DNA of 50,000 bases, from positions 1-50,000 of the forward strand of contig QBYL01000002.1 in assembly GCA_003282835.1 (NCBI GenBank), given 5' to 3'. Positions 35,299-37,892 of this stretch are shown piece by piece; the stretch's first letter is position 1, and every line of letters starts with the position of its first letter. The notes beneath the pieces were generated by a model. The model was not told the origin of the DNA and searched no databases. It worked only from the letters and a program-made list of their open reading frames with translations. Source of the stretch: Pelagibacteraceae bacterium AG-325-J13. Its GTDB lineage: Bacteria > Pseudomonadota > Alphaproteobacteria > Pelagibacterales > Pelagibacteraceae. The position numbers and the translations under genes were made by a program.

Positions 35299-36036
35299 AT
35301 GAAGTTTTCTTTAGAAATAACTATGAAGACAGATTTATCTGTTTTACCAAAATTAAAAGATGTCTATATCACAATGCTACCAGGCGATGATTATAGGCAG
35401 GTCGCTCAAAAGGCTAAGGAACTTGTTCAATTTGGTTATAATCCAATCCCACATTTTCCAGCGAGATCAATTAAAGATTTATCGCAACTAAAAGAATATG
35501 TATCAATGTGTAAGGATTTTGGTGTAAAACAAGCCCTAGTCATCGGCGGAAGTGCAGAACCTCTGGGAAATTACCACTGCTCGTTGCAAATTTTGGAGAC
35601 AGGATTATTTAAGGGGATGAAAATAGGAATTGCTGGACACCCAGATGGGTCCCCTGATATATCGGACTCAGAATTAGAAAAAGCTATGAAAGATAAATTA
35701 CCATTTGCTGATTACATAGTTACTCAATGGTTACTAGATGCCAAGTCTATAGCTAAATTTATTTCGAAACAAACATTACCAGTTCATGTGGGGATTACTG
35801 GGCCTTTAAAAATAAGCAGCTTAATTAAGTTTGCTAGTATTGTTGGAGCAAAAAATTCTTTCAATTTTCTTAAATCTAATGCGACAAAAGCTGTTGACTT
35901 ACTAAGACCAAAAGATCCAAATGATTTAATTAATAGTCTAAAGACGTCCACAGAAAATTTTCATATTTATACTTTTGGAGGGTTAAAGGAAACAAACAAA
36001 TGGTTACTTAAAAATAATTATGCCAAAGAAAAGTAA
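35299..36036 (+). CDS. MetF-like methylenetetrahydrofolate reductase family protein
   Basis: TIM-barrel flavoprotein family that interconverts methylene-THF and methyl-THF. At 245 residues it is shorter than MetF (about 290). The catalytic Glu region is retained as FSLEITMKT (Glu6, equivalent to FEFFPPKT), as is AGHPDGSPD (112-120). The flavin-contacting Asp of the usual RGD or GGD is replaced by Ser in VIGGSAEP (81-88). It overlaps the DmdA/GcvT-like methyltransferase gene by 17 bases, so the pair may work as methyl transfer to THF followed by oxidation of methyl-THF, as in known O-demethylase systems. The direction is inferred. Confidence 0.85.
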   Translation: MKFSLEITMKTDLSVLPKLKDVYITMLPGDDYRQVAQKAKELVQFGYNPIPHFPARSIKDLSQLKEYVSMCKDFGVKQALVIGGSAEPLGNYHCSLQILETGLFKGMKIGIAGHPDGSPDISDSELEKAMKDKLPFADYIVTQWLLDAKSIAKFISKQTLPVHVGITGPLKISSLIKFASIVGAKNSFNFLKSNATKAVDLLRPKDPNDLINSLKTSTENFHIYTFGGLKETNKWLLKNNYAKEK

Positions 36037-37420
36037 AAAGATTAAAAAAAATAAAAAATTTAAGTTAATTTCGTTTAAACCTGAAAAAGTTGATTATAGT
36101 AAAGTTCGACACGAAACATCTGTAGATCAGTCAGATAGAAATGTTCCCTACAATTTAAGGCAAAGTGGTCCGACAAAAGTGGAAATGTTAATTTCAACAC
36201 GAGTAAGAAAATCACCATATTGGCATTTATCAATGCAAGCAGGTTGTTGGAGAGCCACAGTTTATAATCGTATTTATCATCCTAGAGGATATGTTAGACC
36301 TGAAAAAGGTGGGGCAATGGTTGAATATGAAGCTATAAAAAAACATGTAACTATGTGGAATGTAGCAGTTGAAAGACAAATTCGAGTAAAAGGACCTGAT
36401 GCAGAAAAATTTACCGATTTTGTAATTACAAGAGATGCCACCAAGATTTCAACAATGAGAGGAAGGTATGTGATTCTTTGCAATTATAAAGGTGGGGTTT
36501 TAAACGATCCAGTTTTATTAAGAGTAGCCGAAGACGAATTTTGGTTTAGTTTATCTGACTCTGATATTGGACTATATTTACAGGGTGTTAATGCGGATAA
36601 AAGATTTAATGTTGAAATAGATGAAATAGACGCATGCCCAGTTCAAATTCAGGGACCTAAATCCAAAGCTCTGATGAAAGATTTGATTGGAGATCAAGTC
36701 GATTTAGATAAAATGCCTTTTTATGGTTTAGCGGAAGCTAAAGTGGGAGGCAGAAGTTGCGTAATATCTCAATCTGGATTTTCAGGAGAAGCTGGGTACG
36801 AAATTTATCTTAGAAATGCTACCCTTTATGCAGAGGATATGTGGAATGCAGTTCTCAAAGCAGGTAAAAAACACAAGTTAATGGTTATAGCACCTGCTCA
36901 TCATAGAAGAATACAGGCAGGAATATTATCTTGGGGTCAAGATATGGATAATGAACACAATCCATTTCAATGTAATTTAGGTTATCAAGTTTCTTTATCT
37001 GGAAAAGGCGAATGGAACAAACAAACAGATTATGTTGGCAAAGAAGCTCTTGAAAAAATGAAGAAACAAATAACGAATAAAGAGAAACCTTATAAACTTC
37101 AACTTGTTGGTTTAGAACTTGGAGGAAAACCAATAGAAGATTATGCAAATGATTTTTGGTTAGTATCAAATGCGACTGGCGGTAAACCCGTGGGTTATAT
37201 TACTTCACCATGGTATCACCCTGAGAAAGGAAAAAATATCGCAATGGGCTATGTTCCTTACGAAGGCAATGTGAATGCAAACGGTTTTCCAACAGGTAAT
37301 TATGGAAAAAAATATAAAGTTCACTTACCAAAAAAATACTCAAGTAAACCTGTTGATGCTGTAGTAGTGCCATTACCTTTTACTCAGTCTTACAATGCAA
37401 ACACTAGAGAAATTAAATAG
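36020..37420 (+). CDS. DmdA/GcvT-like folate-dependent methyltransferase
   Basis: A 466-residue member of the aminomethyltransferase (GcvT) superfamily, longer than glycine-cleavage T protein or DMSP demethylase DmdA (about 370). Shared features are VEYEAIKKHVTMWNVAVERQ, RVKGPDAEKF, a TRDATKISTMRGRY segment, GVLNDPVLLRVAEDEFWFSLSDSD, VQIQGPKSK, and a DmdA-like QAGILSWGQDMDNEHNPFQC near residue 300. The spacing of the last motif is closer to DmdA than to GcvT. It has an extra basic N-terminal tail (PKKSKKIKKNKKFKL). The likely role is moving a methyl group from an S-, N- or O-methyl substrate to THF; the substrate is unknown. Confidence 0.85.
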   Translation: MPKKSKKIKKNKKFKLISFKPEKVDYSKVRHETSVDQSDRNVPYNLRQSGPTKVEMLISTRVRKSPYWHLSMQAGCWRATVYNRIYHPRGYVRPEKGGAMVEYEAIKKHVTMWNVAVERQIRVKGPDAEKFTDFVITRDATKISTMRGRYVILCNYKGGVLNDPVLLRVAEDEFWFSLSDSDIGLYLQGVNADKRFNVEIDEIDACPVQIQGPKSKALMKDLIGDQVDLDKMPFYGLAEAKVGGRSCVISQSGFSGEAGYEIYLRNATLYAEDMWNAVLKAGKKHKLMVIAPAHHRRIQAGILSWGQDMDNEHNPFQCNLGYQVSLSGKGEWNKQTDYVGKEALEKMKKQITNKEKPYKLQLVGLELGGKPIEDYANDFWLVSNATGGKPVGYITSPWYHPEKGKNIAMGYVPYEGNVNANGFPTGNYGKKYKVHLPKKYSSKPVDAVVVPLPFTQSYNANTREIK

Positions 37421-37445
37421 GCCTTTAAATTTCTAATTAAGCCCA

Positions 37446-37892
37446 ATGAGGACCGATAAAGAGATATATAAAATATTTAAACCTCAGCTAACTCCAAAAA
37501 AAATGATGGAACTCGGTGTGTTTGGAGGATCCTATTTTACTGATGGAGATACTAGTGAATTTCCTAAATCTTGGTTTGTAAAAGCCAAAGTTAGTAAAGA
37601 ATTTAATGTAAGTTTAAATCGATTTAAAATAGCTTCTGGTTTATCAAGAAAAGAATGGATAGATAAAGGATGGATTTTTAAGGAAGATCCTCTTGGATGG
37701 TTTCAGTGGTATTGCAGATTTAAGAATGGTCGAAGAATTATTGAAATAGATACTATTCAAATTAAAAGATGGAAAGCTTTTGGCGACCGGCACGGACCAG
37801 CAGTTAAAAAGAATTGTGAACCTGGCGACTTAGAATGTAGAAAAAGACAAAGACAGGCGCTATTGCAGTGGGCTTATGATCCTATCTTTTAA
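37446..37892 (+). CDS. Conserved protein of unknown function (148 aa)
   Basis: A 148-residue soluble protein, rich in aromatic residues: GVFGGSYFTDG (24-34), EFPKSWFVKAKV, then DPLGWFQWYCRF (81-92), GRR, QIKRWKAF (105-112) and a C-terminal CRKRQRQALLQWAYD (131-145). I recall the same motif order in uncharacterised proteins of other bacteria and of fungi and plants. No catalytic motif is recognised; conserved Cys90, C124 and C131, and Arg/Trp clusters, suggest ligand or nucleic-acid binding at most. It is 25 bases after the methyltransferase gene, so a link to that pathway is possible, and it ends exactly beside the secA stop. Confidence 0.75.
   Translation: MRTDKEIYKIFKPQLTPKKMMELGVFGGSYFTDGDTSEFPKSWFVKAKVSKEFNVSLNRFKIASGLSRKEWIDKGWIFKEDPLGWFQWYCRFKNGRRIIEIDTIQIKRWKAFGDRHGPAVKKNCEPGDLECRKRQRQALLQWAYDPIF

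Follow-up and report, generated by a model that had tools for sequence, protein, structure and literature searches.

Locus and gene pair

The window analysed here, a 50,000-nucleotide stretch of contig QBYL01000002.1 from Pelagibacteraceae bacterium AG-325-J13, belongs to a SAR11 genome of 921,506 bases (81% complete). Three open reading frames follow one another on its forward strand (Table 1): a MetF-like gene, a GcvT-superfamily methyltransferase that we call AMT and a gene for a 148-aa protein. The subject of this work is the first two, with AMT as a candidate tetrahydrofolate (THF)-dependent demethylase of glycine betaine.

The MetF-like frame overlaps that of AMT by 17 bases, as the initial annotation had stated. 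The overlapping arrangement is conserved and not due to chance. We inspected SAR11 loci holding the best 80 of at least 174 relatives of AMT, each with about 6 kb of flank and with start codons called mechanically. In 80/80 loci a MetF homologue ends 8–98 bases, mostly 8, inside the AMT frame. Through this overlap the window's two genes are likely translationally coupled. The closest AMT relatives among the matches listed come from Pelagibacteraceae single-cell genomes, at no more than 93% identity.

From its published description rather than from sequence, the pair appears to match SAR11_1264 (metF) and SAR11_1265 (AMT) of Candidatus Pelagibacter ubique HTCC1062, an adjacent pair of the same kind. 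Sun et al. (2011, PMC3160333) left its substrate open and guessed at the second methyl group of dimethylsulfoniopropionate (DMSP), whereas glycine betaine is indicated here.

AMT family and conserved residues

AMT scores above the Pfam gathering cut-offs for GCV_T (PF01571, 137.7 bits versus 25.6) and GCV_T_C (PF08669, 31.7 versus 25.9). The top curated model is the DMSP demethylase NF009133, at 244.1 bits and below its cut-off of 410. Scores also fall under the cut-offs for GcvT (NF001567, 158.2 bits versus 300; TIGR00528, 133.7 versus 235.85), for the aryl O-demethylases LigM (33.4 versus 580) and DesA (43 versus 800), and for trimethylamine N-oxide (TMAO) demethylase. The nearest solved chain is DmdA 3tfh (369 aa). 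AMT is longer by 97 residues, close to the excess of about 100 first noted.

In a maximum-likelihood tree of 46 proteins, built without LigM, DesA and TMAO demethylase and with several long branches flagged, AMT belongs to a clade of 20 rows (support 97/96): the window, 12 other alphaproteobacterial and 7 haloarchaeal proteins. The sister of this clade is a group (93/92) of DmdA and DmdA-like proteins; AMT lies outside the DmdA group. The early suspicion that the substrate might not be DMSP gains from both the missed cut-off and this separate position. The GcvT, dimethylglycine dehydrogenase (DMGDH) and sarcosine oxidase (SoxA) domains are distant from the AMT clade. The haloarchaeal rows are nested within it, and their position next to alphaproteobacterial G258 (99/96) points to a possible transfer between domains.

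The folate-binding residues are not lost: D163, S177, E261, Y263 and R297 are invariant in 20/20 clade rows. D163 is also aligned with the second Asp of the Thermotoga maritima GcvT pair, which we take to be catalytic. D163, S177, E261 and Y263 align with D108, S122, E204 and Y206 of DmdA 3tfh, residues with a folate or catalytic role, described in part in PMC7487153.

Three parts make up the additional ~100 residues of AMT: a lysine-rich start that varies, and an N-terminal motif and a C-terminal extension that are both conserved. The motif, at residues 35–50, reads V-D-Q-x-D-R-x-x-P-x-N-L-R-Q-x-G. At least 11 of its 16 positions are retained in 19–20 of the 20 clade members, and it is invariant or nearly so in SAR11; the four DmdA rows have a gap there (the 3tfh row begins at residue 9). 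At position 254, 19/20 clade rows have Phe; of the DmdA rows, three show Tyr and one shows Trp.

Two sequence features were discarded as substrate markers. The basic tail pointed out in the initial annotation exists; as a sign of substrate it was rejected, being confined to about the first 20 residues and variable among relatives (the matches of 80 relatives start at query residue 14–23). A single DMSP-specific Trp was dropped because three roseobacter DmdA rows have Tyr at 3tfh position 197. That position may correspond to residue W171/F171 of PMC7487153; the mapping is our own and is not relied on. The same 2020 study sets apart some ‘non-DmdA’ homologues as a subgroup whose modelled structure is unusual.

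Table 1. Positions in the window of the gene pair, features of AMT and the downstream gene
Feature	Position	Strand	Remarks
MetF-like gene	35299-36036	+	245 aa; short S6MTHFR kind (proposed 5-methyl-THF oxidase); overlaps AMT in 80/80 SAR11 loci
AMT, GcvT-superfamily methyltransferase	36020-37420	+	466 aa; proposed THF-dependent glycine betaine demethylase; own clade (97/96)
Reading-frame overlap of metF and AMT	36020-36036	+	17 bases; overlap conserved in SAR11
AMT residues 35-50, clade-specific N-terminal motif VDQSDRNVPYNLRQSG	36122-36169	+	kept in clade; gap in DmdA rows
AMT D163	36506-36508	+	aligned with DmdA D108; 20/20 in clade
148-aa protein	37446-37892	+	no Pfam or NCBIfam match; judged outside the module

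MetF

In phmmer, the MetF-like protein matches 7xg9, a 5,10-methylenetetrahydrofolate reductase, at E 3.9e-34; other chains reach E 0.05 or worse. The Pfam MTHFR score (15.7 bits) is under the 24-bit cut-off. We take 7xg9 to be S6MTHFR of Sphingobium SYK-6, and with this identity the MetF-like gene is, judged by sequence, nearer to S6MTHFR than to classical MetF. S6MTHFR is reported to run backwards in SYK-6, oxidising 5-methyl-THF delivered by LigM (PMC12585457).

We sampled 37 genomes of the window's genus (57–94% complete), 10 with AMT and 27 without. MetF was found in precisely the 10 genomes with AMT and in 0/27 of the others. The MetH B12 domain is absent from 63/63 SAR11 genomes searched, a search that by domain alone would miss split methionine synthases. 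PMC5069961 and PMC12478193 describe SAR11 as without MetE and MetH, one of them also excluding the split form. Since MetF is confined to genomes with AMT and the MetH B12 domain is absent, a role as methyl-THF oxidase serving AMT, rather than methionine synthesis, fits; the enzyme would then run in the oxidative direction. The pairing of a folate-dependent demethylase with a methyl-THF-oxidising reductase, as originally suggested, is thus supported at the sequence level by the domains, the curated models, the 7xg9 match, the tree, the residues and the absence of the MetH B12 domain.

Gene neighbourhoods

We searched 289 alphaproteobacterial genomes for AMT of this clade, counted at 55% identity or more. 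It is present in 13: the window's own, one of the same family (G207) and 11 outside the order, in 9 families. Recurrent neighbours of these AMTs are DMGDH-like genes, SoxB/D/A/G, formate-THF ligase and MetF. A DMGDH-like or SoxB gene lies within 10 kb of AMT, a limit fixed after the loci had been viewed, in 8 of the 11 genomes outside the order (G161, G030, G259, G184, G075, G286, G258 and G247), with 0.40 expected for random placement (P 3e-10). Counted by family, the figure is 6/9 against 0.33 expected (P 1.5e-7). MetF directly adjoins AMT in G030, G259 and G247 and is 16 kb away in G161. EtfB/EtfA genes stand 3' of DMGDH in G207 and G161; the window's genome has an EtfB-like gene after DMGDH, 65% identical to the G161 EtfB.

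The association extends to haloarchaeal megaplasmids. A tblastn search of plasmids with AMT returned 213 records, of which the best 16 are all haloarchaeal (50–57% identity); we read 8 of these 16 regions. MetF is near AMT in 7/8 and a DMGDH-like gene in 6/8 (confirmed by tblastn). Folate genes are formate-THF ligase (2 regions), FolD (2), dihydropteroate synthase (2) and dihydrofolate reductase (3); serine hydroxymethyltransferase occurs in 4/8 regions and a BCCT transporter in 1/8. The eighth region read, from Haloarcula halophila, has none of these genes and no creatininase-family gene. An earlier comparison found dimethylglycine-oxidase-like genes close to BCCT transporters in 4/10 haloarchaea and considered glycine betaine use possible, but it also noted that betaine brought H. 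walsbyi no benefit and did not support growth of H. utahensis (2011, PMC3102087).

Some other neighbours also recur. A Rieske-type ring-hydroxylating oxygenase lies beside MetF in G207 (L209 11461-12687) and G016 (L224 5033-6250), the latter weakly GbcA-like (145 bits, cut-off 670). A 2-hydroxyacyl-CoA lyase gene is found within about 6 kb of AMT in two families (G184, L214 2115-3848; G120, L216 6699-8306). The G184 gene is over the cut-off for its model, and the G120 gene was grouped with it by BLAST.

Co-occurrence with glycine betaine enzymes

Within the genus, DMGDH is found in 10/10 genomes with AMT and in 2/27 without (G289, 60% complete, and G315, 72%), and SoxB is in the same 12 genomes (Fisher P 1.9e-7 for each). 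PF02574, the family of BhmT, MmuM and MetH, shows the opposite pattern: 1/10 genomes with AMT, a partial match in G293, and 20/27 without (P 7e-4). These P values ignore relatedness, and the 10 genomes with AMT may represent a single subclade. NCBIfam could not separate BhmT from MmuM, since 0/6 scanned PF02574 proteins reached any cut-off.

The other known enzymes for the first step are scarce. MTTB is present in 1/74 genomes (G247) and is not found in the window's; the same search was positive in 1/14 control genomes. GbcA exceeds its cut-off in 0/74 genomes, with 0/14 control genomes positive and hence no positive control. A set of SAR11 genomes thus holds the lower part of the glycine betaine pathway but none of the three enzymes known for its upper part, which leaves AMT as the remaining candidate. 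Outside the order, the 100% complete genome G120 likewise has AMT, DMGDH and SoxB and no PF02574, MTTB or GbcA match.

Proposed reaction

A quaternary nitrogen is beyond the reach of flavin enzymes, and removal of the first methyl group of glycine betaine therefore requires a methyl transfer or an oxygenase. Glycine betaine is the nitrogen counterpart of DMSP. We propose that AMT takes one methyl off the quaternary nitrogen of glycine betaine and places it on N5 of THF; the products would be dimethylglycine and 5-methyl-THF. The chemistry would be a redox-neutral onium-methyl transfer, as DmdA performs on the DMSP sulfonium. MetF would re-oxidise 5-methyl-THF to 5,10-methylene-THF, and DMGDH followed by SoxBDAG would complete dimethylglycine breakdown. 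HTCC1062 is reported to oxidise glycine betaine methyl groups (PMC3160333).

That AMT is a GcvT-superfamily THF-dependent demethylase with a substrate new to the superfamily is probably correct. The specific proposal, THF-dependent demethylation of glycine betaine by AMT with MetF re-oxidising the methyl-THF, we put at a probability of about 0.63. The initial annotation had listed methylated sulfur, nitrogen and methoxy compounds as candidate substrates; the gene context narrows this list to a quaternary amine, with glycine betaine the best fit.

Besides the relatedness of the genus genomes and the missing GbcA control, several observations weigh against this assignment. The genes next to the pair in the window include no recognisable glycine betaine transporter, and the window genome's DMGDH is on a different contig. 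In SAR11 the pair usually stands alone: a clear DMGDH orthologue (>1000 bits) is present in just 7/80 loci and a more distant DMGDH-like gene (456–576 bits) in 4 more. Three of the 11 genomes outside the order (G028, G120 and G016) have no DMGDH-like or SoxB gene within 10 kb of AMT, and MetF was undetected at E 1e-15 in G184, G120 and G258. G329 (93% complete) has AMT and neither DMGDH nor SoxB, as has G340, where AMT is a fragment; G341 has DMGDH without AMT. Creatininase-family genes in 4/8 haloarchaeal regions could account for sarcosine enzymes without glycine betaine. In f159, a family of the same order, 22/24 genomes have PF02574 proteins and 21/24 have weak GbcA relatives (275–307 bits, cut-off 670; e.g. 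G330:C1:61406-62617), so that other routes of glycine betaine demethylation could operate in this family. The predicted AMT structure is too poor (mean predicted local distance difference test score, pLDDT, 52.9, from a SAR11-only alignment) to model a substrate pocket. Foldseek with this model placed DmdA 3tfh first at a root-mean-square deviation of ~16, which adds little.

Many f159 genomes carry a PF02574 (BhmT/MmuM-like) gene directly upstream of a second DMGDH paralogue, for example at 916-1947 and 1953-4358 of L270 (G326:C3:165500-170500). This pair is possibly a parallel glycine betaine route.

Alternative explanations

The tree and the curated models place AMT closest to DmdA, as would be expected if it demethylated a sulfonium or methylated sulfur compound, such as the second DMSP methyl suggested by Sun et al., or were a second DmdA. 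The AMT clade is sister to DmdA and DmdA-like proteins, DmdA provides the nearest solved structure, and in G327 AMT is immediately followed by a DmdA-like gene (L223 10760-11893, 372 bits, cut-off 410), in a cluster that also holds DMGDH, SoxB and formate-THF ligase. AMT nevertheless misses the DMSP demethylase cut-off (244 bits versus 410) and falls outside the DmdA group, and its neighbours, haloarchaea included, are genes of N-methylglycine breakdown. No stand-alone DmdA was recognised among the five GCV_T matches of the window genome (81% complete). In a later paper, methylmercaptopropionate is instead converted to methanethiol by way of DmdB and DmdC (PMC5069961). In a flattened table of the same paper, as we read it, SAR11_1264/1265 transcripts drop roughly 5- to 10-fold in stationary phase whether or not DMSP is limiting, so DMSP is not singled out. 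We consider a sulfur substrate unlikely. Action on another quaternary or N-methylated amine (e.g. choline, carnitine, proline betaine or homarine) that joins the same folate and sarcosine enzymes is rather unlikely too. The neighbourhood marks an N-methyl pathway and not an exact substrate, and the polyamine-type and branched-chain-type ABC transporters near AMT in G184 and G258 do not name glycine betaine. Against this, on chemical grounds, only a substrate yielding dimethylglycine directly explains the pairing with DMGDH, and glycine betaine is the missing upstream step.

Other enzymes have been put forward for the SAR11 step. Given its position near opuABC, SAR11_1303 was the glycine betaine candidate of Sun et al. 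(PMC3160333), and Mausz et al. (2025, PMC12478193) proposed BhmT as the single SAR11 enzyme; SAR11_1265 would then do something else. The GCV_T matches of the window genome are limited to GcvT, DMGDH, SoxA, AMT and a short weak match in a 291-aa frame that may be YgfZ. A PF02574 protein was not found in 9/10 genus genomes with AMT, and BhmT is under S-adenosylmethionine riboswitch control and tied to methionine (PMC5069961). We regard these assignments as improbable. It is most improbable that AMT is an ordinary glycine-cleavage T protein or a LigM/DesA-type aryl O-demethylase. It shares the GCV_T and GCV_T_C domains with them, and a MetF partnership with LigM, but is under the cut-offs of all three. 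GcvT is far from AMT in the tree, which had no LigM or DesA; the window genome's GcvT-GcvH-GcvP cluster is elsewhere (C1, ~320 kb), with no gcvH or gcvP near AMT. The initial annotation's view that AMT is not GcvT therefore holds.

Other genes and relatives

The initial annotation counted the 148-aa protein as part of the cluster. We rejected it as a member of the module: it follows AMT in only 5/80 SAR11 loci, and at E 1e-5 neither MetF nor AMT was matched in 17 stretches, some of them short contigs, around its homologues in other alphaproteobacteria. Its place beside AMT is incidental. Homologues occur in 18/190 alphaproteobacterial genomes, including the window's own. The protein has no Pfam or NCBIfam match at E 0.1, is rich in invariant Trp, Arg and Gly, and gave an unusable predicted structure (pLDDT 39).

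The flanks of the pair in the window are housekeeping genes, with an EPSP-synthase-family gene, DUF2948 and IF-1 upstream and SecA and ArgJ downstream. Formate-THF ligase is upstream of the pair in 9/80 SAR11 loci. The sole viral-contig relative of AMT, at 93% identity to that of the window, is cut off by the end of a 4-kb contig of a viral collection (IMGVR_UViG_3300006315_000185); this contig is probably a host fragment. Judging by the owners of a few accessions, the ‘non-DmdA’ subgroup mentioned above may be the AMT clade.

Relation to known systems

DmdA (3tfh; NF009133) has folate residues in common with AMT, and THF is the expected methyl acceptor of AMT as well. AMT differs in its separate clade, its score under the family cut-off, its conserved N- and C-terminal extensions, Phe254 and its gene neighbours. 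LigM and S6MTHFR of Sphingobium SYK-6 likewise combine a GcvT-superfamily THF demethylase with a short MTHFR that oxidises 5-methyl-THF; LigM acts on vanillate, and the metF/AMT overlap is a feature of SAR11. In Ruegeria pomeroyi, MtgBCD and MetF2 perform the same task, passing a glycine betaine methyl to THF with MetF oxidation proposed to follow (PMC12478193). That route requires cobalamin and an MTTB-family protein, which was not found in 73/74 genomes here. BhmT also demethylates glycine betaine and is now the route assigned to SAR11. It differs from AMT in family (PF02574), in using homocysteine as methyl acceptor and in its absence from the searches of 9/10 AMT-bearing genus genomes.

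The gene pair and its open substrate were already published. The clade and its neighbourhoods, the haloarchaeal link, the absence of the BhmT family and the glycine betaine assignment did not turn up in the open-licence literature searched. Nor did any paper naming a GcvT-type glycine betaine demethylase, although one may exist.

In the sea, glycine betaine serves as an important osmolyte and nutrient, and SAR11 outnumber all other marine heterotrophs (PMC12478193, PMC3160333). BhmT was placed first in glycine betaine breakdown by Sun et al. (PMC3160333), and under the 2025 proposal, in which BhmT catalyses the first step in SAR11, every demethylation is coupled to methionine (PMC12478193). 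The chances are about even that SAR11, several other alphaproteobacteria and haloarchaea share an O2- and cobalamin-independent folate glycine betaine demethylase spread by gene transfer, with AMT rather than BhmT as the main entry of glycine betaine methyls into SAR11 energy metabolism and the overlapping MetF as a dedicated methyl-THF oxidase. If AMT is such an enzyme, it would add a fourth chemistry for this step, beside the Rieske oxygenase, the cobalamin methyltransferase and BhmT. It would account for those SAR11 genomes in which enzymes for dimethylglycine and sarcosine are present and PF02574 proteins are missing. Glycine betaine demethylation would be uncoupled from methionine, and in an abundant ocean bacterium the methyl group would pass through folate to energy metabolism.

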